A stretch of DNA of 64,000 nucleotides from Rhizobium album (GTDB lineage: Bacteria > Pseudomonadota > Alphaproteobacteria > Rhizobiales > Rhizobiaceae). Under the pieces are notes generated by a model. The model was not told the DNA's origin. It searched no databases and was given only the letters and a program-made list of their open reading frames with translations. This document shows, one piece after another, positions 46,824-59,217 of this stretch (position 1 is its first letter; every line of letters begins with the position of its first letter). The stretch covers positions 62,001 through 126,000 of the forward strand of contig NZ_QFBC01000019.1 in NCBI RefSeq assembly GCF_003122325.1, given 5' to 3'. The translations under genes and the position numbers were made by a program.

Positions 46824-49800
46824 GTGAGCATACAGATCTCGGGTCGGCAACTTCTGGACAAGGTCTATTCGCTTTTCGGTGGCGCAGCCAACGGCCTAAT
46901 TCCGGCAACCTCCGTCCCCATGCCTGGCGACGAGCCCGGCAGATGGACGGATATCGGCGAATGGACGACCTTGGCTTCTCGTCTGGGCGCAGAAATGTTG
47001 CTCTTCGTCCAGAATGATCCTGTTTTCATCTTCTCGTCGATTGCAGGTCCGCTAGACGATGATCTTATCTACGAGGCCTACCGTCGTGCATGGTGTATGT
47101 CAGGGCCGTTCTGCCTCTTTCTGGCACTTCCGAACGCTCTCCACGTCTACGCTCTAACGACGCCGCCATTACAGTCCGAAATAGCCGCACTTGATCCCCT
47201 AATAATCTTTGAACGGCTTGATCAGGTTGATGAGGCCCTCGGTGGTCTTTCCCCCGCCGGAATAATCGAGAAGCTAGCAGCCGGCGCCGAGCGTTCGCAA
47301 ACCGGGCGGGCCGACATTCGTCTGGTCAATGACCTGAAACGGGTGCGGCAAGCCCTGATTTCGTCGGGGATGGCGGCGTCGGCGGCACATTCATTGATCG
47401 GGCGCAGCATTCTCATTCGCTATCTCGAGGATCGGCAAATTATTGGCGGAAAATATTTCCGTCAGGTTGCTGGCGAAAATTCCGAGTGGTTGAGGCTTCT
47501 GTCGACGCCGCCTGAGAGGCCGGTTTTCGGCGCCACTGCCCGTGATCGTCTTTTTGACCGCGTACTGCTTGATGCTAAATTTACGCTGGCTTTCTTCGAT
47601 CGTCTGGCAAAGGATTTCAACGGCGATCTTTTCGCGATCGGCGAAAAAGGAAATTCCTTCAAAACCGAACATTTGCTGGAAATGCGAAAATTTCTGCTTG
47701 GCGATACCGATAAGGAGCAGCCGGAGCTGTTTTTCTGGGCCTATGATTTCGAAATCGTCCCGCTTTCGCTGATCAGCAGCATCTATGAAGAATTTTACCA
47801 TGCGGTGCCGCTCGAAGAACAGACGGCAGGCGCGCTTGACGACAACACCCATTTTACTCCGATCACACTCGTTCAGGACGTTCTAGATCGCCTTTTGCCT
47901 GTGTCGGTGCTTGAGACGCGGCCGAGGATCCTCGATCCGGCTTGCGGTTCCGGAATTTTTCTGGTCGAAGCTTTCAAGCGCATGGTCCGCTTCGAGGTCT
48001 CCAGCCGGCAGCGGAAGCTCACCTCAAGCGAGCTACGCTTGATATTGCAGAATCAGATCTGTGGGGTCGAACTGCGGCAGGAAGCAGCGCGCGTCGCAGC
48101 CTTCAGCTTATACTTGGCCTTGCTAGATAGTCAGGACCCGTCCGACATTCTGGCTGCCGGACCGATGCCTCACCTGATTGGTGGCGCCGTCCGCGATGAT
48201 CTTCATTTCGGAACGGTTCTGGTGGCGAACGCATTCGATCTAATGGCGCACGAGCGAGAAGAGATCGATGCGTTCAACAATCTGCGGAAGCGGTATGCCG
48301 GCAAGGCAGATGTTGTCGAACTCCTCGCGGCCGGGACTTTAGATCTTCGACCTAATTCGTTCGACGTCATCGTCGGCAACCCGCCGTGGCAGGAGGCAGC
48401 CGACTATGTCATCGAAGACGGCAAGGAAGCCCTTCGGAAGAAGGGGGGGGCCGCCAGAGTGGCTCTGCTTTGGGCCCAGCGATATGGCTACCTTATCGGA
48501 GACAAGAGCTATTCGCAGCTCTTCCTCTATCGCTGCCTGTCATTGCTGAAGCCCAAAGGTCGATGTGGGCTCCTCGTGAGCGCGAAGGTTCTATGGAACG
48601 CGCGCGACACAAGCCGGGCGTTTCGCCGTCAATTTCTCGGACAAGTAAATGTTCATGAAGTCGTAAACTATACGCATGTCAGGCGGCTGCTTTTTGCGGA
48701 GGCAACGGCGCCCTTCATGTTCCTGCACTACAGTGCACGTGAGGAAACGTCTCGAAGCGGCATGGTATCCTATTGGAGCGCGCGCCGGACAAGCCTCGTC
48801 GAAAAGACGCGGACCATCGGACTGATGCAGATGGAGCGCCACTTCGTAAGACAGACAGACCTTGAGGCCTTTGATTATCTCTGGAAGACTTATTGGTGGG
48901 GAAATCATCGCGATGCTGCTCTCATCGGCCGCCTTGGTATGGAGAGGCCGCTATCCGATTTCCTCAACAAGGATGGGTGCCTGCCCGGCTATGGCTGGCA
49001 GAAGGGATCTAAGCCCGCGCGAGGAGATCTCGCGACTCTACGAGAGCTCTCGAGCAGAGCGATAGAACCGTTTGGTCCATCGAAGGAGAATTGGTTCGGT
49101 GATCCGCCGAAAGGTGTTGGCCGCCAGCCTGACGAACGACTCTATCGTGGTATGCGATTGTTGACGAAGACCGGTATTTCTGAGCCGCAAGGTACAGTCA
49201 GCCGCCTTGAGACCGCACCGTTTTCGTTCCGCCACACGGTCTACTGCGTTCCTCTCGACGGGTGGAAAGAGAGAGACGGAAAGATCGCAATCGGCGTGTT
49301 CTGGTCGTCGCTCGGTCGCTACCGTCTCTTCATGACGGCGGGATCTTGGGGCGGCTGGTTCGACAAGGTAACTGGGGAGGATATCTTGAGCATGCCCCTT
49401 CGACTCGAAGCCTCGTGGGGAATGCCGAAGGCGGAATTCGAAGCAGCCGCAGAAACAATCGCAAAATCAGTTACCTTCCTCCAAGAGTTCGAGCTCAAGA
49501 ACAACGAGTTAACAGATCCGAGCGTTCCAAGCGCGGAAGAGCAATTGGAGATGCTCACTGAAGTGCGCCAAGAGCTCGACAGGGCGGTCTATGATCTCTT
49601 CGAGCTCAGTGAGCCGGAGCGCAACCTTATTGACGACTTCTGGAAGAACGAACACGATTTCTTCTGGAAAGGTCCTGACTCAACCGCGCTCTTGGGGCTA
49701 GAGAGACCTGAGATTGGGTCGTCGACGACGATCGGTCCTGACTCGGGAGCAGGCGCTTTCTCGCGCTACATTTCCGCTTTCGCTGAGGAGCTTTCCCAGC

Positions 49801-50138
49801 GTTTGAGCAAACCTATCAGACTGTCTTGGTCGATCACGGGACCGGAGACTTTTGATATCGTCGGAATCCGGTTCAATGTCACAGGCGCTACCCAAAAGCA
49901 TCCACAAGGCCTTCAAAGCGATCCTGCTTGGGAAAGCGTCTTAGAGAGGATGCGCCCGAAACAAGCGCAGGACGATCACCGGTCATTCTTCGACAATCGG
50001 CCAATAAGAATCTCGGACAATAGCGGGTTCATGATCGTGAAATCAAACAAGCAACGAAATTGGACCGCCACACGCGCGCGCGAAGACGCGGAGGCAGTAA
50101 ACGTGAGCTTTCTCCGTGCCGGGCAAAATCTACAATGA
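46824..50138 (+). CDS. N6-adenine DNA methyltransferase (Eco57I/PglX-like)
   Basis: 1104-aa protein. Methylase motif I is ILDPACGSGIFLVEAF (about residues 367-382) and motif IV is DVIVGNPPWQEA with NPPW near 517, typical of type IIG/PglX N6-adenine methylases. The N-terminal 340 residues contain a helical module (DLKRVRQALISSGMAASAAH) rather than an obvious PD-(D/E)xK nuclease. The C-terminal 500 residues would be target recognition. It starts at GTG and overlaps the next, nuclease-like gene by 4 nt, so this looks like the modification and specificity subunit of a restriction system. Confidence 0.85.
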   Translation: MSIQISGRQLLDKVYSLFGGAANGLIPATSVPMPGDEPGRWTDIGEWTTLASRLGAEMLLFVQNDPVFIFSSIAGPLDDDLIYEAYRRAWCMSGPFCLFLALPNALHVYALTTPPLQSEIAALDPLIIFERLDQVDEALGGLSPAGIIEKLAAGAERSQTGRADIRLVNDLKRVRQALISSGMAASAAHSLIGRSILIRYLEDRQIIGGKYFRQVAGENSEWLRLLSTPPERPVFGATARDRLFDRVLLDAKFTLAFFDRLAKDFNGDLFAIGEKGNSFKTEHLLEMRKFLLGDTDKEQPELFFWAYDFEIVPLSLISSIYEEFYHAVPLEEQTAGALDDNTHFTPITLVQDVLDRLLPVSVLETRPRILDPACGSGIFLVEAFKRMVRFEVSSRQRKLTSSELRLILQNQICGVELRQEAARVAAFSLYLALLDSQDPSDILAAGPMPHLIGGAVRDDLHFGTVLVANAFDLMAHEREEIDAFNNLRKRYAGKADVVELLAAGTLDLRPNSFDVIVGNPPWQEAADYVIEDGKEALRKKGGAARVALLWAQRYGYLIGDKSYSQLFLYRCLSLLKPKGRCGLLVSAKVLWNARDTSRAFRRQFLGQVNVHEVVNYTHVRRLLFAEATAPFMFLHYSAREETSRSGMVSYWSARRTSLVEKTRTIGLMQMERHFVRQTDLEAFDYLWKTYWWGNHRDAALIGRLGMERPLSDFLNKDGCLPGYGWQKGSKPARGDLATLRELSSRAIEPFGPSKENWFGDPPKGVGRQPDERLYRGMRLLTKTGISEPQGTVSRLETAPFSFRHTVYCVPLDGWKERDGKIAIGVFWSSLGRYRLFMTAGSWGGWFDKVTGEDILSMPLRLEASWGMPKAEFEAAAETIAKSVTFLQEFELKNNELTDPSVPSAEEQLEMLTEVRQELDRAVYDLFELSEPERNLIDDFWKNEHDFFWKGPDSTALLGLERPEIGSSTTIGPDSGAGAFSRYISAFAEELSQRLSKPIRLSWSITGPETFDIVGIRFNVTGATQKHPQGLQSDPAWESVLERMRPKQAQDDHRSFFDNRPIRISDNSGFMIVKSNKQRNWTATRAREDAEAVNVSFLRAGQNLQ

Positions 50139-50902: not shown

Positions 50903-52048
50903 TTACAGGATACCCCATGCCCGAAACCTCCCCCTGCCCGTCATCTCCCTGAGGCCAAGTTCCAAAACGATCCGCCGCGCCGCCTGCGGAGTGACGTCCA
51001 GCATCTTCGCCACCATCCCGGCCGACACCAGTGGTTTCGCCATGACCAGCTCAACCAGCTCCGGCAGTTTTGACGACGTCCGCCGTCCTTCCAACTTTCG
51101 GTCCATCATCGTCTTCGCCAGCATCAGCCTGTCATGTTCTTTCATCCCGATCTCGGTGGTCGCGATCAGACCATGAACAATGGCGAGCAACCGGGTTTCC
51201 CGATCACGATGACGGCGTCGATCGACGGGAATGGTTTTCAGGCCGAGGTTGAAGGCCGCCAAATGCGCGCCTGACGTAATGCCGGCCTCCCGCAAAATCG
51301 AGGCGGCGAACAATCTGCCAAGCCAGGGCGCGTGCTGAAGGACGGCCAGCTCGTTCCAGGCATCGAGGGCGACGATCGCCTGCAGCGCTGCCGGCAAATT
51401 TTCGGACTGACGCATCGCGCCGCGCCATTCGTCGAGCCGGGCATCCTCGTCCCAGTCGAGATCATAGACGAGAGGGTCTCGTTCCCGAGCATCCGCCGAA
51501 GCCCGTCCGGGCTTCCTGGCTTGTTCGATCGCAGCGTCCGATCGCGCGAGCAGCGCATCGATGGCGTCATAGTCGACGCCGGGAAGCCCGTCGGCTTCGT
51601 CGATGTCCCACCCCTCCCCTTCCGCATCTGCCGCGACTGCGGGCCGGATGGCGCCAGCGGACCCAACCGCATCAACGCCGACTGGAGTGACGTCCGCTGT
51701 TTTTCGCAACGCCCGAATGCCTTCGGCCGACAACGCCCAGTCCGGCGACTGCGCGGCAATACGCCGGCGCGTGCGAAGAACGTCGCGAGCGATGGTGAGT
51801 TCGTGGGTGGGCGTGCGGGTATCGCGAAAGGCGTCGTGGAGGACGAGGTCCTCGAGATGGACCAGTTCGCCGTCGATCCACAGCGATGCGCAGGCGTCGG
51901 CGAAATTCTGGCGTTCGAGAAAGCCCGCGCCGACCGGCGAGCGTGCAATCCGCTCGTCGAGACGAGTGAGCGCGATGCCGGCGTCGAACGCCGGCCGCAT
52001 CAGGGCTGAAATGCTTATTTTCGAGAGATCGTAAGCCATTGAAATCAT
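50903..52048 (-). CDS. RHE_PE00001/DUF1612 family protein with HTH
   Basis: 381-aa protein of a family that is common on rhizobial repABC plasmids. The N-terminal domain includes [20 protein letters not shown]-like sequence (residues 6-30) and [20 protein letters not shown]. The DUF1612 part is in the centre, and there is a C-terminal helix-turn-helix ([20 protein letters not shown]) ending [21 protein letters not shown] binding is likely. ATGs at 52048 and 52039 are both possible. It lies divergent from the integrase pair with a perfect palindrome in between, so regulation of, or cooperation with, the recombinase is plausible. Confidence 0.78.
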
Positions 52049-52123
52049 GGTAAATGACTTACTAAAGGAACTCTAGTCTAATATTAATGTTCCTCACATG
52101 GTACGGTCTTGAGTTGGGTTATA

Positions 52124-52152
52124 ACCATCGATAAGTAACCCTTATCGATGGT
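52124..52152. other. Candidate recombinase core site or operator
   Basis: Perfect inverted repeat: 12-bp arms ACCATCGATAAG and CTTATCGATGGT around TAACC. The 12-5-12 layout resembles tyrosine-recombinase core sites. It lies between the HTH-protein and the recombinase pair, 66 bp before the latter. Confidence 0.5.
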
Positions 52153-52217
52153 AGATCGACAGGAGTCGCAAATCACTCTATCGTCGCGCAATCCACCGTC
52201 CGCAAAGGGTCAATCCC

Positions 52218-52505
52218 ATGGAAGATCGCGTCCGCTTCGCCCTCGAAAAGCTCCTCAACGTCGCTAACGGTGACACCGGCCAGGGCCGGCGCGTCGCCAA
52301 CTTCATTCTCGCCTGGTGGAACGCCGGCGAGCATGGCGGCTTCGATCTCACGGATCTCGCCAATGTCGATAGTGAGGTCGCCGAGGATATGGCGACCGTC
52401 TTCACCTGGCTGGCCCGCGAGGAGGACCTTCACTACCCCCATGACTATCGCGGCGAGATCGAGCAGATTATCGCGCGCTGGCGGCCACAGGCAGAGACCG
52501 CCTGA
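52218..52505 (+). CDS. DUF7673-like small protein
   Basis: 95-aa acidic soluble protein: VRFALEKLLNVANGDTGQGR, RVANFILAWWNAGEHGGFDL, then VAEDMATVFTWLAREEDLHY. Its pattern matches small proteins found beside plasmid integrases in rhizobia (DUF7673 type; assignment from memory). It overlaps the recombinase start by 1 nt (TGATG), so it is translated with it and may be an accessory factor. Confidence 0.68.
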   Translation: MEDRVRFALEKLLNVANGDTGQGRRVANFILAWWNAGEHGGFDLTDLANVDSEVAEDMATVFTWLAREEDLHYPHDYRGEIEQIIARWRPQAETA

Positions 52506-53659
52506 TGGTTTCCGCCAGAAAAGCTGCCAGCCTTTCCGGAATCGAGCGCCGCGCCGTCGAGCTCGACACGATTGCATCGGTGCTGCCGATCGACCGCCGC
52601 GATGAGCTGGCCGAGCTGCTCACCGATCACGATATCGAAACGCTGCGCCATCTCGTCAACGAGGGCATGGGCGCCAACACTTTACGCGCCATCACCTCCG
52701 ACCTCGCCTATCTCGAAGCCTGGGCGCTGGCGGCGACAAAGCGGTCCCTGCCCTGGCCGGCGCCCGAGGCGCTGCTGTTAAAATTCGTCGCACAGCATCT
52801 GTGGGATCCACAGAAACGCATCAGCGATCCCGATCACGGCATGCCGGCCGAGGTCGATGACAATCTGCGCGCCCAAGGTTTCCTCAAATCGACCGGTCCG
52901 CATGCGCCAGCCACCGTGCGACGGCGGCTGGCCAACTGGTCGACACTGACGAAATGGCGTGGGCTCGATGGCGCCTTCGCCTCCCCTCCTCTCAAATCCG
53001 CCATTCGGCTCGCCGTGCGCGCCACGCCGCGGAAGCGTCACCGGAAGAGCGCCAAGGCGGTCACCGGCGATGTGTTGGCCAAATTGCTGGCGACGTGCTC
53101 GACCGACAGTCTCCGCGATCTGCGGGATCGGGCGCTCCTGATGGTGGCCTTTGCCTCCGGCGGCCGCCGGCGCAGCGAGATCGCCGGATTGCGCGTCGAG
53201 CAACTGACGGCAGAGCCGCCGATCGAGGTGGCCGACGGCCCTCCCCTCCCCTCTCTCGCCATCCATCTCGGCCGGACCAAGACGACCAACGGCGAACAGG
53301 ATGATGTCGTCTATCTGACCGGGCGACCGGTGGATGCGCTGAACGACTGGATCGCCGCGGCCAAGATCGAGAGCGGCAGCGTGTTTCGGGGGATCGGGCG
53401 TTGGGGCACGGTCTCGAAGCGCTCGCTGGATCCGCAGTCGGTCAATGCGATCTTGAAACAGCGGGTGGAAATGGCGGGGTTGGTGGCTGGGGAGTTTTCG
53501 GCGCACGGGTTGCGGTCGGGATATCTGACTGAGGCTGCCAACCGCGGTATCCCCCTCCCCGAGGCGATGGAGCAGTCGCGTCACCGGTCTGTTCAACAGG
53601 CCTCCAGCTACTACAATAGTGCCGCACGGCGGAGTGGGCGCGCAGCCCGCCTGCTTTAG
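52505..53659 (+). CDS. Tyrosine recombinase/integrase
   Basis: 384-aa integrase. The N-terminal SAM-like core-binding domain (TLRAITSDLAYLEAWALAAT) is followed by the catalytic domain with Arg I in ASGGRRRSEIAGLRVEQL, the HGLRSG box (His and Arg II) and MEQSRHRSVQQASSYYN (final His and nucleophile Tyr). The complete R-H-R-H-Y set means it is probably active. It is likely used for plasmid multimer resolution or cassette integration, acting on the inverted repeat at 52124. Coupled to the small upstream gene. Confidence 0.9.
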   Translation: MVSARKAASLSGIERRAVELDTIASVLPIDRRDELAELLTDHDIETLRHLVNEGMGANTLRAITSDLAYLEAWALAATKRSLPWPAPEALLLKFVAQHLWDPQKRISDPDHGMPAEVDDNLRAQGFLKSTGPHAPATVRRRLANWSTLTKWRGLDGAFASPPLKSAIRLAVRATPRKRHRKSAKAVTGDVLAKLLATCSTDSLRDLRDRALLMVAFASGGRRRSEIAGLRVEQLTAEPPIEVADGPPLPSLAIHLGRTKTTNGEQDDVVYLTGRPVDALNDWIAAAKIESGSVFRGIGRWGTVSKRSLDPQSVNAILKQRVEMAGLVAGEFSAHGLRSGYLTEAANRGIPLPEAMEQSRHRSVQQASSYYNSAARRSGRAARLL

Positions 53660-53689: not shown

Positions 53690-54610
53690 TTGGGGCAGTT
53701 AAGTCAGTTTTTTCAGCCGCCTTTGGATTGGCAGCAATTTGAAGAGCTCACACGGGGATTGGTGGATCAACTCTACAACACTCAATCGTCGATGATAGGC
53801 CGCTCGGGTCAAGCCCAAGACGGTGTTGACATCTATGCAAGGACACAAGCCGTGGGCCACCTCGGCGTTCAATGCAAACGACTCTCTATCCGGGATGATA
53901 ACAACAATCTCCTCGCAAACGCGGTAATCTCACCTGCGATGCTTAAGGAAGAGGCCGAAATAGCGCTGAATTTCAGGCCTACGCTCAATACGTGGGTTCT
54001 TGCAACAACCGCAAAGCGAGACGCTAGAATTCAAAAGAGTGCTCGCAACCTGACCGAGGCTTTTGAGAAACGCGGCGTCGGAGTTCGGGTCCAAGCGTGG
54101 TTTTGGGACGACTACGTCTCTTGGCTTAACCTCTTTCCCGATCTTCAGCGGTGGTATTATGACAAGGTGATACACATTCGCAGCTCGTCCGAACAAGACG
54201 AGCTCATTCTAAGCTTGATCGCGACTGCATTTCACAGACCCGCATTCAGTGACCCTTTGTATAGCGAGAATGCCGACGACCTCCTACAGGCGATCAAGGA
54301 CACCCATATGGCGTTGCGAACTGGGGAACTCGTCGATCGCAAAAGCAAGCACGTCATCCAGAAAGCAATAGGCGGTTGGCGCAGCCTCTCCAACTCAGCT
54401 TGGAAGGCAGAACTCAAGGGCCTTGAGAGCGATTTGCAAACGCTCAAGATCAAAATGATGGAGGCAATTAAGGAGAAATTGATTGTTCAGCATTCGAACT
54501 ACCTAGAAATTCGCGACCCACAGTTGGTTGAAGACCTAGAGTACATGCGCGCGAGCTGCGTCAGGAGGCTCAATATCATCCTGTTGGATGGCAAACTTGA
54601 AGAGATCTGA
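53690..54610 (+). CDS. Mrr-like restriction-endonuclease-fold protein
   Basis: 306-aa protein with a PD-(D/E)xK core of the Mrr type at the N-terminus: E18/E19 (WQQFEELTRGL), GRSGQAQDGVDIYA with D47, and LGVQCKRL giving Q61-x-K63. The rest (about residues 110-306) is helical (GWRSLSNSAWKAELKGLESD) and unassigned. It starts at TTG, 30 nt after the recombinase stop. The QxK motif is typical of type IV enzymes and of nuclease effectors in NTPase defence proteins, but no NTPase partner is adjacent. Confidence 0.75.
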   Translation: MGQLSQFFQPPLDWQQFEELTRGLVDQLYNTQSSMIGRSGQAQDGVDIYARTQAVGHLGVQCKRLSIRDDNNNLLANAVISPAMLKEEAEIALNFRPTLNTWVLATTAKRDARIQKSARNLTEAFEKRGVGVRVQAWFWDDYVSWLNLFPDLQRWYYDKVIHIRSSSEQDELILSLIATAFHRPAFSDPLYSENADDLLQAIKDTHMALRTGELVDRKSKHVIQKAIGGWRSLSNSAWKAELKGLESDLQTLKIKMMEAIKEKLIVQHSNYLEIRDPQLVEDLEYMRASCVRRLNIILLDGKLEEI

Positions 54611-55527: not shown

Positions 55528-56739
55528 TCAAGCCCGCTTCGCCTCCTGCCCGCTTGCGCGAAGCAACGCCATCAGAACGGGACCTAGCGAGAATTCGCCG
55601 CGGCGCGCCTTCCCCGTCAGATCCCTCAGATAGCCGCCAGGAGATGAAATATGGCCCACCCTCTCAAGGATTGCTGCCATCGTGGCGGCGGCATTCTCAG
55701 GCCCCATGACCTCGCAAGCGTCCTGGTAGGCTGACGGGCTCACCCCGAGCATAGATCGCACCACCACGGCGGCGAACATCAGATCGCGCCAGCTCTCGAT
55801 ATTGCCTCCCGGGCCATACATCGCGATCTCCGGGCATGCACGAAGAACCATGCCCAATGGGAAAGCCTTTATCGGCTCGATCTTACGTTCAATATCCGGC
55901 CTCGGCTTCTCGCCCAGCTCGTTTCTGGAGCTAGGTTCAAGTTCAATGATAGATTCGGTATTTGAATTCTGTATGTGCTGCCGGATATCGGCATCATTGG
56001 TGTCGGTTTTTTCTGTAATTATCAGGGTTTCCAACTGGTTGATTACTTCTTCTCGTAACAGCTCGAGTTCCTCCAGCAATCCTTCGAAGGCTTCGGTGGT
56101 CTTTGCCGCCCGCAGACGGGCCATGAGGGCGACGTAAAGCGATTCGACCGTCTCCCAGTTGCCCGACACCCCGTCCTCGATCGCCGCCGAAAGCAGCTTA
56201 CGGACGTCTCGTCTCGCGATCGTTATGCGCTCTTTCACAAACTTCAGATGCCGCTGGGTCGCCGCGACTTGCTGGGCCAGTAGGGCGAGCTCCTCAGAGC
56301 GTGCGAGAAGCGGCGAAAGACTAAAGCCGTATGCTGTCTCAATGGCGCCGTCAGTTCCTTTCCGGGCATAGCGCTTCCCATTGGGGCTATCACAGCGCTG
56401 GATAAGGCCTGCCTCAACGAGATGCGCGAGGTTTTCTCGCAAGGTTGAACCAGCGATCCCGTTTGCCCGAGCCGTTAGCTGGGCATTCGAGGGAAAGACA
56501 ATCAGATTGCTCTCGTCACTCAACGACGCCTCTGGGTAAAAAGTCAAAAGCGCATTGAGAACAGCGAGCGCTCGGTCACGTAGGCCCAGCAGCGAACGTG
56601 CATCGCAAGCGTCCCTGAAGATTTTCCACTTGTCTATCTGCTTCCCCGGTTCGATCTGCGAAGCTCGCATTTGCGATCTGACCAAGGCAAGCGTCATCGG
56701 CCGCCGCCCAAAGGGCGTCGTGACATTTCCAACCTGCAT
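55528..56739 (-). CDS. repC: Plasmid replication initiator RepC
   Basis: 403-aa initiator of the repABC family. The N-terminal winged-helix DNA-binding domain begins TTPFGRRPMTLALVRSQM and contains KIFRDACDARSLLGLRDRAL and FPSNAQLTARANGIAGSTLR. The central coiled region and C-terminal conserved block (RDLMFAAVVVRSMLGVSPSA; GGYLRDLTGKARRGEFSLGP) are complete. It is the essential replication protein and binds oriV inside its own gene. Start at 56739 has AAGGAAA; expression should be limited by the antisense RNA in the 167-nt repB-repC gap. Confidence 0.97.
   Translation of the reverse strand: MQVGNVTTPFGRRPMTLALVRSQMRASQIEPGKQIDKWKIFRDACDARSLLGLRDRALAVLNALLTFYPEASLSDESNLIVFPSNAQLTARANGIAGSTLRENLAHLVEAGLIQRCDSPNGKRYARKGTDGAIETAYGFSLSPLLARSEELALLAQQVAATQRHLKFVKERITIARRDVRKLLSAAIEDGVSGNWETVESLYVALMARLRAAKTTEAFEGLLEELELLREEVINQLETLIITEKTDTNDADIRQHIQNSNTESIIELEPSSRNELGEKPRPDIERKIEPIKAFPLGMVLRACPEIAMYGPGGNIESWRDLMFAAVVVRSMLGVSPSAYQDACEVMGPENAAATMAAILERVGHISSPGGYLRDLTGKARRGEFSLGPVLMALLRASGQEAKRA
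55941..56050. other. Probable oriV (AT-rich segment within repC)
   Basis: A roughly 110-bp stretch inside repC is clearly AT-richer than its surroundings (for example TTTTTTCTGTAATTATC). In studied repABC plasmids the origin lies in such a central repC segment. Positional inference only. Confidence 0.4.
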
Positions 56740-56832
56740 TTTCCTTCACCTTTCAAAAGGCAAAAGAAATTCGCTCACCAAAACGGTGCCAAAGACTCTT
56801 GACTGCGATTCACGGAAATGCGATTCTCAGGT

Positions 56833-56886
56833 TGCTTACACCTTTGAGAGAGGCTTCCATGACGGCAACGTTTGGGGGCCTTTTTC
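56833..56886 (+). ncRNA. Predicted counter-transcribed RNA (antisense to the repC leader)
   Basis: In the repB-repC gap and opposite to rep transcription: TTGACT (56799-56804), 17 nt, GATTCT (56822-56827) as promoter. Then comes a terminator stem AGGCTTCC (56851-56858) / GGGGGCCT (56874-56881) followed by TTTTTCTTTT. The product would be about 50 nt, the size and place of the known repABC ctRNA that controls repC and copy number. The start is estimated from the promoter. Confidence 0.7.
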
Positions 56887-56906
56887 TTTTGCTACTGCCT
56901 TCCGAT

Positions 56907-57914
56907 TTAGTCCTCTGTTGACGGAGCATTGCTCCGAAATTTGGCGTAGAGTTCAGGAAGCTTTTCCATCAAGTATGATGCAAAGGCTTCATCCTGCTCT
57001 CGATTAATCTGAATTTTGCAGAGCTTTCCCGTCAACGATAGGGTCGCGATTTCCTTGCCATCAGATGATCTTGCGACAGCCGGGGCTTTCGGCTTTGCCG
57101 AGTTACCGACATCGCCCGTCTTCGCAGCCCTCAGCACGACCGAAAAGCGATCGTCGGAATCCTTGTGAGCGAAGGAATTGTCTTCCGTTGCCTTATGCGC
57201 CTTTTTTGCAGCGCCGGCGATCTTGAGGCTCTCGACAAGATCGAGCCACCTCGGCCGTCCGATCTTTGGCGCACGCCCGATTGCATCAATCAGCGAACGA
57301 GGCACACCGCGAGCGACACTCAGGAGCTTCTGGGCTTCTTGGCGGTCAACAGACAGAGCGGTCTGGATCAGCGATCGCTGGATGCCGCCGTCCTCGAGCT
57401 TCAAGGCAAACATTGCCCGCTCGATGAAAGTCAGGTCTTCGCGCGCCGAATTCTCCACACCCTGGGCAACGACGAGACGATCGTCATCCAGCTCGCGGAC
57501 GTAGGCTTTGACCGCAATGCCGAGTTCGGACGCTGCACGCACCCGCCGGTGACCATAGGCAATCTGATAGCGGCCAGGCGCAGAGGGATGAACCCGCACA
57601 AGGATAGGGATTTCTTGTCCATGTTCGCTCAGCGAAGTCTTCAGCGCTTCGACTGCCGCCAGATCCTGATCGACGAAGCGGTCAGCAAAGGGGGAGGGGT
57701 CGAGCAAGCCGGGATCGAGTTCAACGGGCAGGGCGCCACTTGCGACTTGCTGCTTCAGTTCCTCGTAATCACGTTCAACTTCGGAAAAGGTGTCCTTGAG
57801 CGACCGGACCGCACCTGAAGCAACACGCTGTATGGGTTGCCGCGCTTCATCGGCCGGCGCGTCTTCGGTACCGCCGGCAAAAAGAGAGCGGATTGATTGT
57901 GTTCGCTTGCTCAC
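56907..57914 (-). CDS. repB: Plasmid partitioning protein RepB
   Basis: 335-aa ParB-type centromere-binding protein. The N-terminus KRTQSIRSLFAGGTEDAPAD is typical of RepB. The ParB/Srx domain has DPSPFADRFVDQDLAAVEAL, HGQEIPILVRVHP and YQIAYGHRRVRAASELG, with the NSAREDLTFIERAMFALKLE helix before the HTH SLIQTALSVDRQEAQKLL. The C-terminal dimer domain follows. GTG start with GGGGAGG upstream. Works with RepA in segregation and in autoregulation of the operon. Confidence 0.96.
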   Translation of the reverse strand: MSKRTQSIRSLFAGGTEDAPADEARQPIQRVASGAVRSLKDTFSEVERDYEELKQQVASGALPVELDPGLLDPSPFADRFVDQDLAAVEALKTSLSEHGQEIPILVRVHPSAPGRYQIAYGHRRVRAASELGIAVKAYVRELDDDRLVVAQGVENSAREDLTFIERAMFALKLEDGGIQRSLIQTALSVDRQEAQKLLSVARGVPRSLIDAIGRAPKIGRPRWLDLVESLKIAGAAKKAHKATEDNSFAHKDSDDRFSVVLRAAKTGDVGNSAKPKAPAVARSSDGKEIATLSLTGKLCKIQINREQDEAFASYLMEKLPELYAKFRSNAPSTED

Positions 57915-57955
57915 GCAGGGACCTCCCCATCACGGCCGGTCTCATGAACCGAGAT

Positions 57956-57971
57956 GTAGTCAGCTGACCAC
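57956..57971. other. parS-like site between repA and repB
   Basis: GTAGTCAGCTGACCAC, 15 of 16 identical to the perfect palindrome at 55467. The repA-repB gap is a known parS location in repABC operons. Confidence 0.65.
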
Positions 57972-58008
57972 ATGTTAAGTGTCTGAATTTTATCGATAGA
58001 GGTTGAGA

Positions 58009-59217
58009 TCATCGCTGCCAGACCTCGTTTAGAAGCGCGACAACCTCCTGGTTGACGGCATTGATCGATTCCATCGCGCGATCGTATGTGGACCGGCCAA
58101 CGGCACCTCTCGTCAGCTCGTAAAGAGATTGCTTGGTCAGTCCTGCATTGGCGATTGCAGTCGATTTCCAAGCGGTCGCAGCCATTACATCCGATCCGAA
58201 CACATCGCGCATCAATCCGACGATCTCTTGCTCCGGAACATCGCGAGGATCGTGCCGGGTCACGAGAAAACGCAGGAAGTCGTAATCAAGACGGCCACCG
58301 GCCTCCTCGATGACGGATACGAGGTCCGAGGTCATCAGAAGGAACTGGCTCATTGATGCAACGTCGACCATTTGTGGGTGGACGGTGACGATCATGCCCG
58401 TCGCGGCGTTCAGAGCGCCCATGGTTAGAAAGCCCAATTGGGGTGGGCAATCTACGACGACAACGTCGAAGTCGTCTTCGACCTGGGCGATTGCGCCGGC
58501 GACCCTTCTGAAGAACAGATCCTCCGGCCGACCACGATTTTGCAGCATGAAGCGCGGGGTTTGATGCTCAAACTCCATGAGCTCGAGATTACCGGGAACG
58601 ATGCTGATCCCTGTAAAATATGTCGGGCGGATAACGTCCTTCATTGTGACGCGCTGATCGTCATAACGAATGGCGCCATAGAGGGTGGTGTTTTCGGCGA
58701 CATCGAACTCGGGCTGATAACCGAACATGGCCGAGAGCGAAGCCTGCGGATCGAGATCGATCGCCAAAACGCGATAACCCTGCAGCGCAAGCCCTTGAGC
58801 TAGATAAAGCGAGGTGGTGGTTTTTGCGGATCCGCCTTTGAAATTGGCAACCGTAATGACCTGCAGCTTTTCACCATCACGCCGACGTGGAAAAAACCTT
58901 GTCGCTTCCTTAGGGCGAGCGCTCGCTAGATACTGCCGCAGCTCGTTAATTTGCTCGAGCGAATAGGATCGCCGTCCGCCATTTCCAAGATCCGGCGTCG
59001 GACCTAGACCGTCGATTGATAGTTGGCGCAGGTAGCCGTCCGAAACGCCGACGATCTCCGCGACTTCGCCTGACGAGAACGACCGAAGTGTTTTCTGCGC
59101 GGTCGGCGGGAATGCGCGTTCGCCAACTGCACGCAAGCGGGCAGACAGCGCTTCGGCCCGCTGTGTGATATGGGCAGAAGTCGATGCCTTTAGGATGTGC
59201 CGGTCGATCACGTTCAC
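58009..59217 (-). CDS. repA: Plasmid partitioning ATPase RepA
   Basis: 402-aa ParA-type ATPase. An N-terminal HTH (FSSGEVAEIVGVSDGYLRQL) precedes the deviant Walker A NFKGGSAKTTTSLYLAQGL (about residues 125-143), then LAIDLDPQASLSAMFGY and VVVDCPPQLGFLTMGAL. It represses the operon and segregates plasmid copies with RepB. The start codon is GTG at 59217, with GAGG upstream and no usable ATG nearby. First gene of the operon; its promoter lies in the 371-nt gap shared with traI. Confidence 0.97.
   Translation of the reverse strand: MNVIDRHILKASTSAHITQRAEALSARLRAVGERAFPPTAQKTLRSFSSGEVAEIVGVSDGYLRQLSIDGLGPTPDLGNGGRRSYSLEQINELRQYLASARPKEATRFFPRRRDGEKLQVITVANFKGGSAKTTTSLYLAQGLALQGYRVLAIDLDPQASLSAMFGYQPEFDVAENTTLYGAIRYDDQRVTMKDVIRPTYFTGISIVPGNLELMEFEHQTPRFMLQNRGRPEDLFFRRVAGAIAQVEDDFDVVVVDCPPQLGFLTMGALNAATGMIVTVHPQMVDVASMSQFLLMTSDLVSVIEEAGGRLDYDFLRFLVTRHDPRDVPEQEIVGLMRDVFGSDVMAATAWKSTAIANAGLTKQSLYELTRGAVGRSTYDRAMESINAVNQEVVALLNEVWQR

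Follow-up and report, generated by a model that had tools for sequence, protein, structure and literature searches.

A palindromic site beside an IntA-type tyrosine recombinase on a repABC replicon of Rhizobium album is probably the core of a plasmid cointegration and resolution module

Core sites of tyrosine recombinases consist of conserved arms placed around a variable, asymmetric overlap. Xer/dif systems combine a tyrosine recombinase with a short core made of inverted arms and a central region, while in Cre/loxP and Flp/FRT a simple palindrome surrounds a spacer that is asymmetric. The closest described system is that of Rhizobium etli, in which the recombinase IntA recombines attA of plasmid p42a with attD of plasmid p42d in both directions, a reaction that amounts to plasmid cointegration and its reversal (PMC4928290). 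The accessible portion of that work, which also names Cre/loxP and Flp/FRT, deals with one strain and two named sites, and states that recombination requires a 23-bp sequence in which a divergent centre separates the two arms of a palindrome (PMC4928290). In the sequence records, the p42a core (2595-2617, about 108 bp from the intA start) reads TCCGATAAG-CAGTA-CTTATCGGA, and the p42d core reads TCCGATAAG-CATTA-CTTATCGGA. The sequence labelled attA in the accessible portion of PMC4928290 corresponds to the p42d record (attD), the centre of the p42a record being CAGTA. An exact copy of the attA 23-mer also lies on a third replicon of the same strain, p42f (NC_007766, L278, 101656-101678), in front of an RHE_PE00001-family gene; an IntA-homologue fragment flanks it on the other side.

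Here we describe a 64,000-nucleotide stretch of Rhizobium album DNA (hereafter the window; contig NZ_QFBC01000019.1, positions 62,001 to 126,000) that carries a palindrome between a tyrosine recombinase gene and a divergent helix-turn-helix (HTH) gene (Table 1). A first-pass annotation made from the sequence had proposed that the palindrome is a recombinase core site within a plasmid-resolution or integration module, with an operator for the HTH protein as the alternative. The recombinase next to the palindrome is intact, as that annotation held, and aligns with R. etli p42a IntA over 359 aa. Residues R221-R223, K259, H334, R337, H360 and Y370, to which we presume the catalytic roles fall, are invariant in 70 aligned homologues (107 were collected). 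The HTH neighbour was likewise correctly recognized as RHE_PE00001-type, scoring 526.7 bits against a curated cut-off of 250 for this family (NF040876). The supposed recombinase pair, by contrast, is one recombinase and one small DUF7673 protein. The presence of repC, repB and repA makes the replicon a repABC plasmid or chromid; 1,131 plasmid records matched the query in part, and 201 of these did so over at least 80% of its length at a single location.

Table 1. Features of the window around the palindrome (window coordinates)
Feature	Coordinates	Strand	Remark
RHE_PE00001-family protein (DUF1612 + HTH_13)	50903..52048	-	Divergent from the recombinase
Second inverted repeat, GGAAC-N17-GTTCC	52067..52093	.	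Upstream of the HTH gene; candidate operator
Palindromic, putative recombination core (att-like)	52124..52152	.	Arms ACCATCGATAA / TTATCGATGGT flanking the 7-bp overlap
Putative 7-bp overlap, GTAACCC (toward the HTH gene: GGGTTAC)	52135..52141	.	Variable part of the core; cleavage positions predicted
CGCAAATCA	52167..52175	+	Recombinase side; partly conserved, weakly to moderately in the profile
DUF7673 small protein	52218..52505	+	Found in part of the relatives only
Tyrosine recombinase, IntA homologue (probable orthologue)	52505..53659	+	PF00589; 79% identity to p42a IntA
repC-repB-repA replication and partition genes	55528..59217	-	Same replicon as the palindrome

Two further reading frames of the neighbourhood deserve mention. 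Directly downstream of the recombinase, positions 53690-54610 encode a protein with a weak, sub-threshold match to Mrr_cat. On the far side of the HTH gene, positions 46824-50138 hold a 1,104-aa open reading frame with an NPPW motif, which we take to resemble an adenine-specific DNA methyltransferase or a restriction-modification fusion.

The palindrome is present exactly as first reported, as a perfect 12-5-12 inverted repeat of sequence ACCATCGATAAG-TAACC-CTTATCGATGGT. Allowing up to three arm mismatches, the 29-mer has a single match in the window (none in 100 shuffles) and a single match in the 6.86-Mb, 62-contig genome assembly, so the suggested search for additional copies returned this one alone. 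The window contains no other perfect inverted repeat with arms of at least 10 bp and a gap of 3-20; in 20 first-order Markov controls the mean was 1.1 repeats with arms of at least 10. A palindromic form taken by itself would also suit a chance repeat or a transcription terminator, but the same controls produced on average 0.05 repeats with arms of at least 12, and both the position and the arms are conserved in dozens of relatives, which makes such an explanation extremely improbable.

Comparison with R. etli places the window with the IntA/att system. Like attA and attD, the window core is a palindrome with inner arms CGATAAG...CTTATCG and a divergent centre; the recombinases are closely similar (Table 1), the core lies just upstream of the recombinase gene in the window as on p42a, and the host is a large conjugative plasmid. 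The two differ at the 2 outermost of 9 arm positions (ATCG... in the window versus TCCG..., AT for TC), in the overlap (GTAACCC versus GTACTGC/GTAATGC on one strand), and in the HTH and DUF7673 genes that adjoin the window core and are absent beside attA. Thus the exact 23-bp attA/attD sequence does not occur in the window, the outer two arm bases and the overlap being different; because arm variants are frequent among relatives, we did not take the exact 23-mer as defining the family. On these sequence grounds, the window belongs to an already known kind of rhizobial plasmid recombination system. More distant systems share general features. The window resembles Xer/dif in pairing a tyrosine recombinase with a short core of inverted arms and a central region, but differs in its single plasmid-borne recombinase and variable overlap. 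Identity as XerC or XerD was rejected, since the recombinase scores 34.4 bits against a family cut-off of 335.15 and 33.7 bits against 329.6. The cores of Cre/loxP and Flp/FRT are comparably simple palindromes whose spacer is asymmetric; the window spacer differs in its predicted length of 7 bp. The window recombinase matched no solved-structure sequence at E<=0.01.

The proposed 12-5-12 geometry holds for the window copy and gives way, in relatives, to a core of the general form ACCATCGATAA-N7-TTATCGATGGT with conserved arms and a variable 7-bp overlap. A spacer of 7 bp follows from the many relatives in which pairing stops at ...CGATAA / TTATCG..., their arms being one base shorter; the 12-5-12 form is limited to the window copy and to others with a G...C overlap, and the pairing of the outermost spacer G and C in the window is an accident. 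Among 85 unique core-to-ATG segments we counted 42 overlap types. A profile of 64 unique loci sharing one core-HTH distance extends the outer arms as ACCAT/ATGGT, which lie outside the selection rule, whereas the invariance of the inner CGATAA/TTATCG is a consequence of that rule. The overlap is weakly conserved in this profile except for T (95%) and A (80%) at positions 5 and 6 toward the HTH gene.

An exact CGATAA-N7-TTATCG core lies within 2.2 kb upstream of the recombinase, the arrangement seen in the window, in 62 of 80 IntA-homologue loci (the best 80 of 393 from named genomes). The remaining 18 of these best 80 include two with a one-mismatch core and four whose start is no more than 160 bp from the end of a contig. 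The distance from core to recombinase ranges from 90 to 1,221 bp in the 62 core-bearing loci, and DUF7673 or toxin-antitoxin genes occupy this interval in some relatives. On the recombinase side of the core, a CGCAAATCA-type motif also adjoins attA and attD, and it may possibly be an accessory or promoter element. Five IntA homologues that are 82-84% identical to that of the window (L088, L091, L107, L111 and L128) have upstream regions that contain neither a core nor an HTH match and that look alike by eye.

The alternative already raised by the first-pass annotation is that the palindrome is primarily an operator, through which the RHE_PE00001-family HTH protein represses its own gene and the recombinase. 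The palindrome does lie between two divergent genes, and its distance to the HTH start codon is 81 bp in 75 and 80 bp in 5 of the 85 segments; this near-constant spacing, set against the 90-1,221 bp to the recombinase, ties the core more rigidly to the HTH gene. The two also co-occur: an HTH match is found within 2.6 kb in 46 of the 62 core-bearing IntA loci and in 2 of the 18 loci without an exact core. Cores nevertheless exist apart from the HTH gene. There is no HTH match within 2.6 kb upstream in 16 of the 62 core-bearing loci (two of them, L078 and L142, with a short upstream stretch), no RHE_PE00001 gene in the 9 kb fetched around attA on p42a, and neither a recombinase nor an RHE_PE00001 gene in the 12 kb fetched around attD on p42d.

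The HTH gene, conversely, exists apart from the core. The RHE_PE00001 gene of p42e is reported to be essential in R. etli in the accessible portions of PMC3898782 and PMC9022086. It adjoins repC and lacks an IntA-type core, and the 15 kb fetched contain no annotated recombinase. Relatives at about 43-45% identity also lack such a core, though others at 47-51% have one, and HTH-family genes with neither recombinase nor core occur among the fetched stretches. No rate is given for the HTH upstream regions that lack an exact core, 21 in our collection, as some have mis-anchored starts or near cores (e.g., L067). Several core-less RHE_PE00001 relatives (p42e, L175 1-176; L040; L047) carry a different inverted repeat, GAAG...CTTC, which ends 19 bp before the start codon and is possibly their own operator.

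A separate sequence in the window would serve an HTH operator better. The second inverted repeat ends 18 bp ahead of the HTH start codon, closer than the palindrome, and covaries among relatives, with paired variants GGAAC/GTTCC, CGGAC/GTCCG, CGAAC/GTTCG and CGAAT/ATTCG. It is fully paired in 34 of 85 segments, where 2,000 shuffles averaged 17.7 and never exceeded 29, a contrast that is not a strict probability because neighbouring offsets score nearly equally and the loci are related. This repeat therefore appears to be the better operator candidate for the RHE_PE00001-family protein, which provides the family with a candidate operator and a genetic context. Taken with the cores that lack an HTH gene, with attA as a published recombination site (in the accessible portion of PMC4928290) and with the natural junction described below, which switches at the core, it leaves a primary operator role for the palindrome very unlikely.

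A milder form of the same idea is dual use, in which the HTH protein would also bind the core, or would act as a directionality or accessory factor at fixed phase. The near-fixed core-HTH spacing and the conserved block that includes the second inverted repeat suggest such a role, and the accessible portion of PMC11963761 describes a Mesorhizobium ICE whose tyrosine recombinase has a winged-HTH directionality factor. Against it stand the HTH-family genes that have neither recombinase nor core in the fetched stretches, the 23-bp sequence as the stated requirement for IntA recombination (PMC4928290, accessible portion), and attA itself, without an HTH gene in its fetched 9 kb. Dual use is compatible with a recombination core, so its likelihood overlaps with that reading, and we consider it possible but on the doubtful side.

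Natural junctions in relatives bear indirectly on recombination at the core. One genome (G457) holds four sites with a single overlap, of which three were fetched and the fourth lies at a contig end. In 50-column windows, locus L254 is 94-100% identical to L253 on the recombinase side, whereas on the HTH side it is 95-100% identical to L252; the opposite comparisons are weak or unrelated, and the switch in identity falls at the core. A mere assembly join is unlikely, because L254 and L253 still differ on the side that they share.

A second case comes from Pseudorhizobium banfieldiae NT-26, whose closed plasmid NT26_p1 (NZ_FO082821.1; 322,264 bp; L279 and L280) has two replicon types and two direct cores at 110,700 and 313,544. 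The spacing of these cores, 202,844 bp, is exactly the length of the separate plasmid 2 of strain NT-25 (comparison loci L281 and L282), which also has a plasmid 4 of 118,955 bp. In a comparison that covered two probes and the site flanks, a 20-kb probe from between the cores was 100% identical to NT-25 plasmid 2, and a 21-kb probe from outside them was 100% identical to NT-25 plasmid 4. On the recombinase side of NT-26 site 1, the 5,700 bp leading up to the core match plasmid 4 at 100% identity; on the HTH side, 5,000 bp match plasmid 2 at 100% identity. Informative differences confine the change-over to a 23-bp stretch of the core. Both NT-25 plasmids have the overlap GCATTAC, that of plasmid 4 with one arm base changed (TTATCA). 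NT26_p1 thus resembles two NT-25-like plasmids joined into one. Unlike the outcome of a simple fusion, both sides of NT-26 site 2 match plasmid 2 and the reciprocal junction is absent; with the HTH side of plasmid 4 missing there, a later rearrangement must be assumed, for which an ISL3-family element near site 2 is a possible cause. Fusion in NT-26 and resolution in NT-25 are both compatible with the junctions.

Taken together, the homology to IntA and attA, the architecture of conserved arms around a variable overlap, and the natural junctions of relatives, in which identity changes over at the core, argue for the core-site reading first proposed, and make an HTH operator less likely. We consider it very probable, from these sequence comparisons, that the neighbouring IntA-type tyrosine recombinase of this repABC replicon has the palindrome as its core recombination site, and the window module is most likely a plasmid cointegration and resolution module. 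In such a module, each of the two inverted arms would be bound by a recombinase protomer; the pair would cleave at the edges of the 7-bp overlap and swap strands with another site whose overlap is compatible. Sites on two plasmids would yield a cointegrate, and direct repeats would be resolved. The window protein would act on its own site, and the divergent HTH protein would regulate the module from its separate operator.

Many Rhizobiaceae genomes carry an IntA-type core, its geometry refined as above to conserved arms and a variable 7-bp overlap. A first survey of 394 Rhizobiaceae genomes, one per species, gave matches in 45 (a reversed-pattern control in 2) and retained 54 of 62 sites, the eight others being dropped because neither end of their 5-mer was TA. 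This survey and its repeat cover overlaps of the form G-N5-C. In the 11 multi-site genomes, 10 of 19 pairs had identical overlaps against 2.2 expected, in counts whose contigs are not always distinct replicons. A within-genus shuffle gave 3.0 for the same 10 of 19 pairs (P about 5e-5), and 2.8 for the 6 genomes concerned (P 0.008). The repeat survey took other genomes of three genera, one of them covered up to genome G546, and kept 130 of 143 sites among the matches listed, dropping 13 for lack of a TA. Among the matches listed, 51 of 86 pairs were identical against 17.8 expected, a number reached in 0 of 5,000 shuffles, and 22 of 33 genomes had such a pair against 10.4; ignoring the overlap centre, a choice made after the fact, raised the pairs to 60 of 86 against 28.3. 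One dropped pair (G536) had identical overlaps. The genus of G389, with 7 genomes all already in the set, was left out of the repeat.

Recent duplication is not the whole explanation of this sharing, given that, where pairs with an identical overlap had their flanks compared, most flanks were 72-93% alike or gave no match. Exceptions in which one side is at least 98% alike were found in G457 and G427, and over short stretches in G412, G522 and G452; these sides would fit exchange at the core. More generally, the sharing may stem from selection that favours compatible sites, from exchange that homogenises them, or from a common ancestry of the replicons. We had entertained the opposite expectation, that co-resident sites should differ so as to avoid fusion, and the family-wide data run against it, although the present genome and 6 of 7 same-genome pairs among the named loci (within the best 80 of 393) do differ, the one pair with an identical overlap being L103/L110. 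The three IntA-type cores of this genome read GGGTTAC (window, contig C11), GGGATAC (C16) and ACGTTTG (C6).

The sharing also bears on whether dimer resolution of its own plasmid might be the main role of the module, with cointegration as a side effect. Such a role is compatible with a recombination core, so that the two likelihoods overlap, and it would suit a module that has a simple core and one recombinase and that stands beside repABC genes in the window and in some relatives. Overlaps common to different contigs of one genome point the other way, as do the apparently fused plasmid with direct cores in NT-26 and a recombinase far below the XerC/XerD family cut-offs. We regard dimer resolution as the main role as rather unlikely.

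Returning to cointegration, we hypothesize that the 7-bp overlap is a compatibility code and that the IntA family forms a standing plasmid-fusion network, which carries replicons along in conjugation and exchanges half-modules; we hold the chances of this proposal to be evenly balanced. Fusion of the window replicon with C16 is predicted because their overlaps differ only at the centre, as those of attA and attD do, and attA recombines with attD, whereas fusion with C6 is not predicted under a compatibility code. Should the code hold, sequence would predict which symbiotic, catabolic and accessory plasmids fuse and enter a recipient. We did not find the 7-bp overlap reading of IntA cores, the sharing of overlaps within genomes, the NT-26/NT-25 junction or the third exact attA 23-mer on p42f in the open-licence literature searched, and subscription papers may contain some of them.

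A second module of similar build occurs among the loci examined. It likewise has a divergent accessory gene, here DUF1403, a tyrosine recombinase and, between them, a core of the form TCCGATAA-N7-TTATCGGA (L149 346-2557, L203, L230 and others). It differs from the IntA type in its recombinase, which shares about 28-31% identity with IntA across the aligned portion, and in its recurrent overlaps, e.g., TCCGATAA-TGCAAGA-TTATCGGA. We dropped the claim that DUF1403 is a clear homologue of the HTH protein, the C-terminal profile match being weak (probability 37%). The present genome has cores with the overlap TGCTCGC on two other contigs (L231, G000:C17; L232, G000:C33); the stretches fetched around them hold no match to any recombinase or accessory gene tried, and they are possible orphan sites of the DUF1403-type module. 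At two loci (L008 and L024), a DUF1403-type module lies about 1.4 kb from an IntA-type core.
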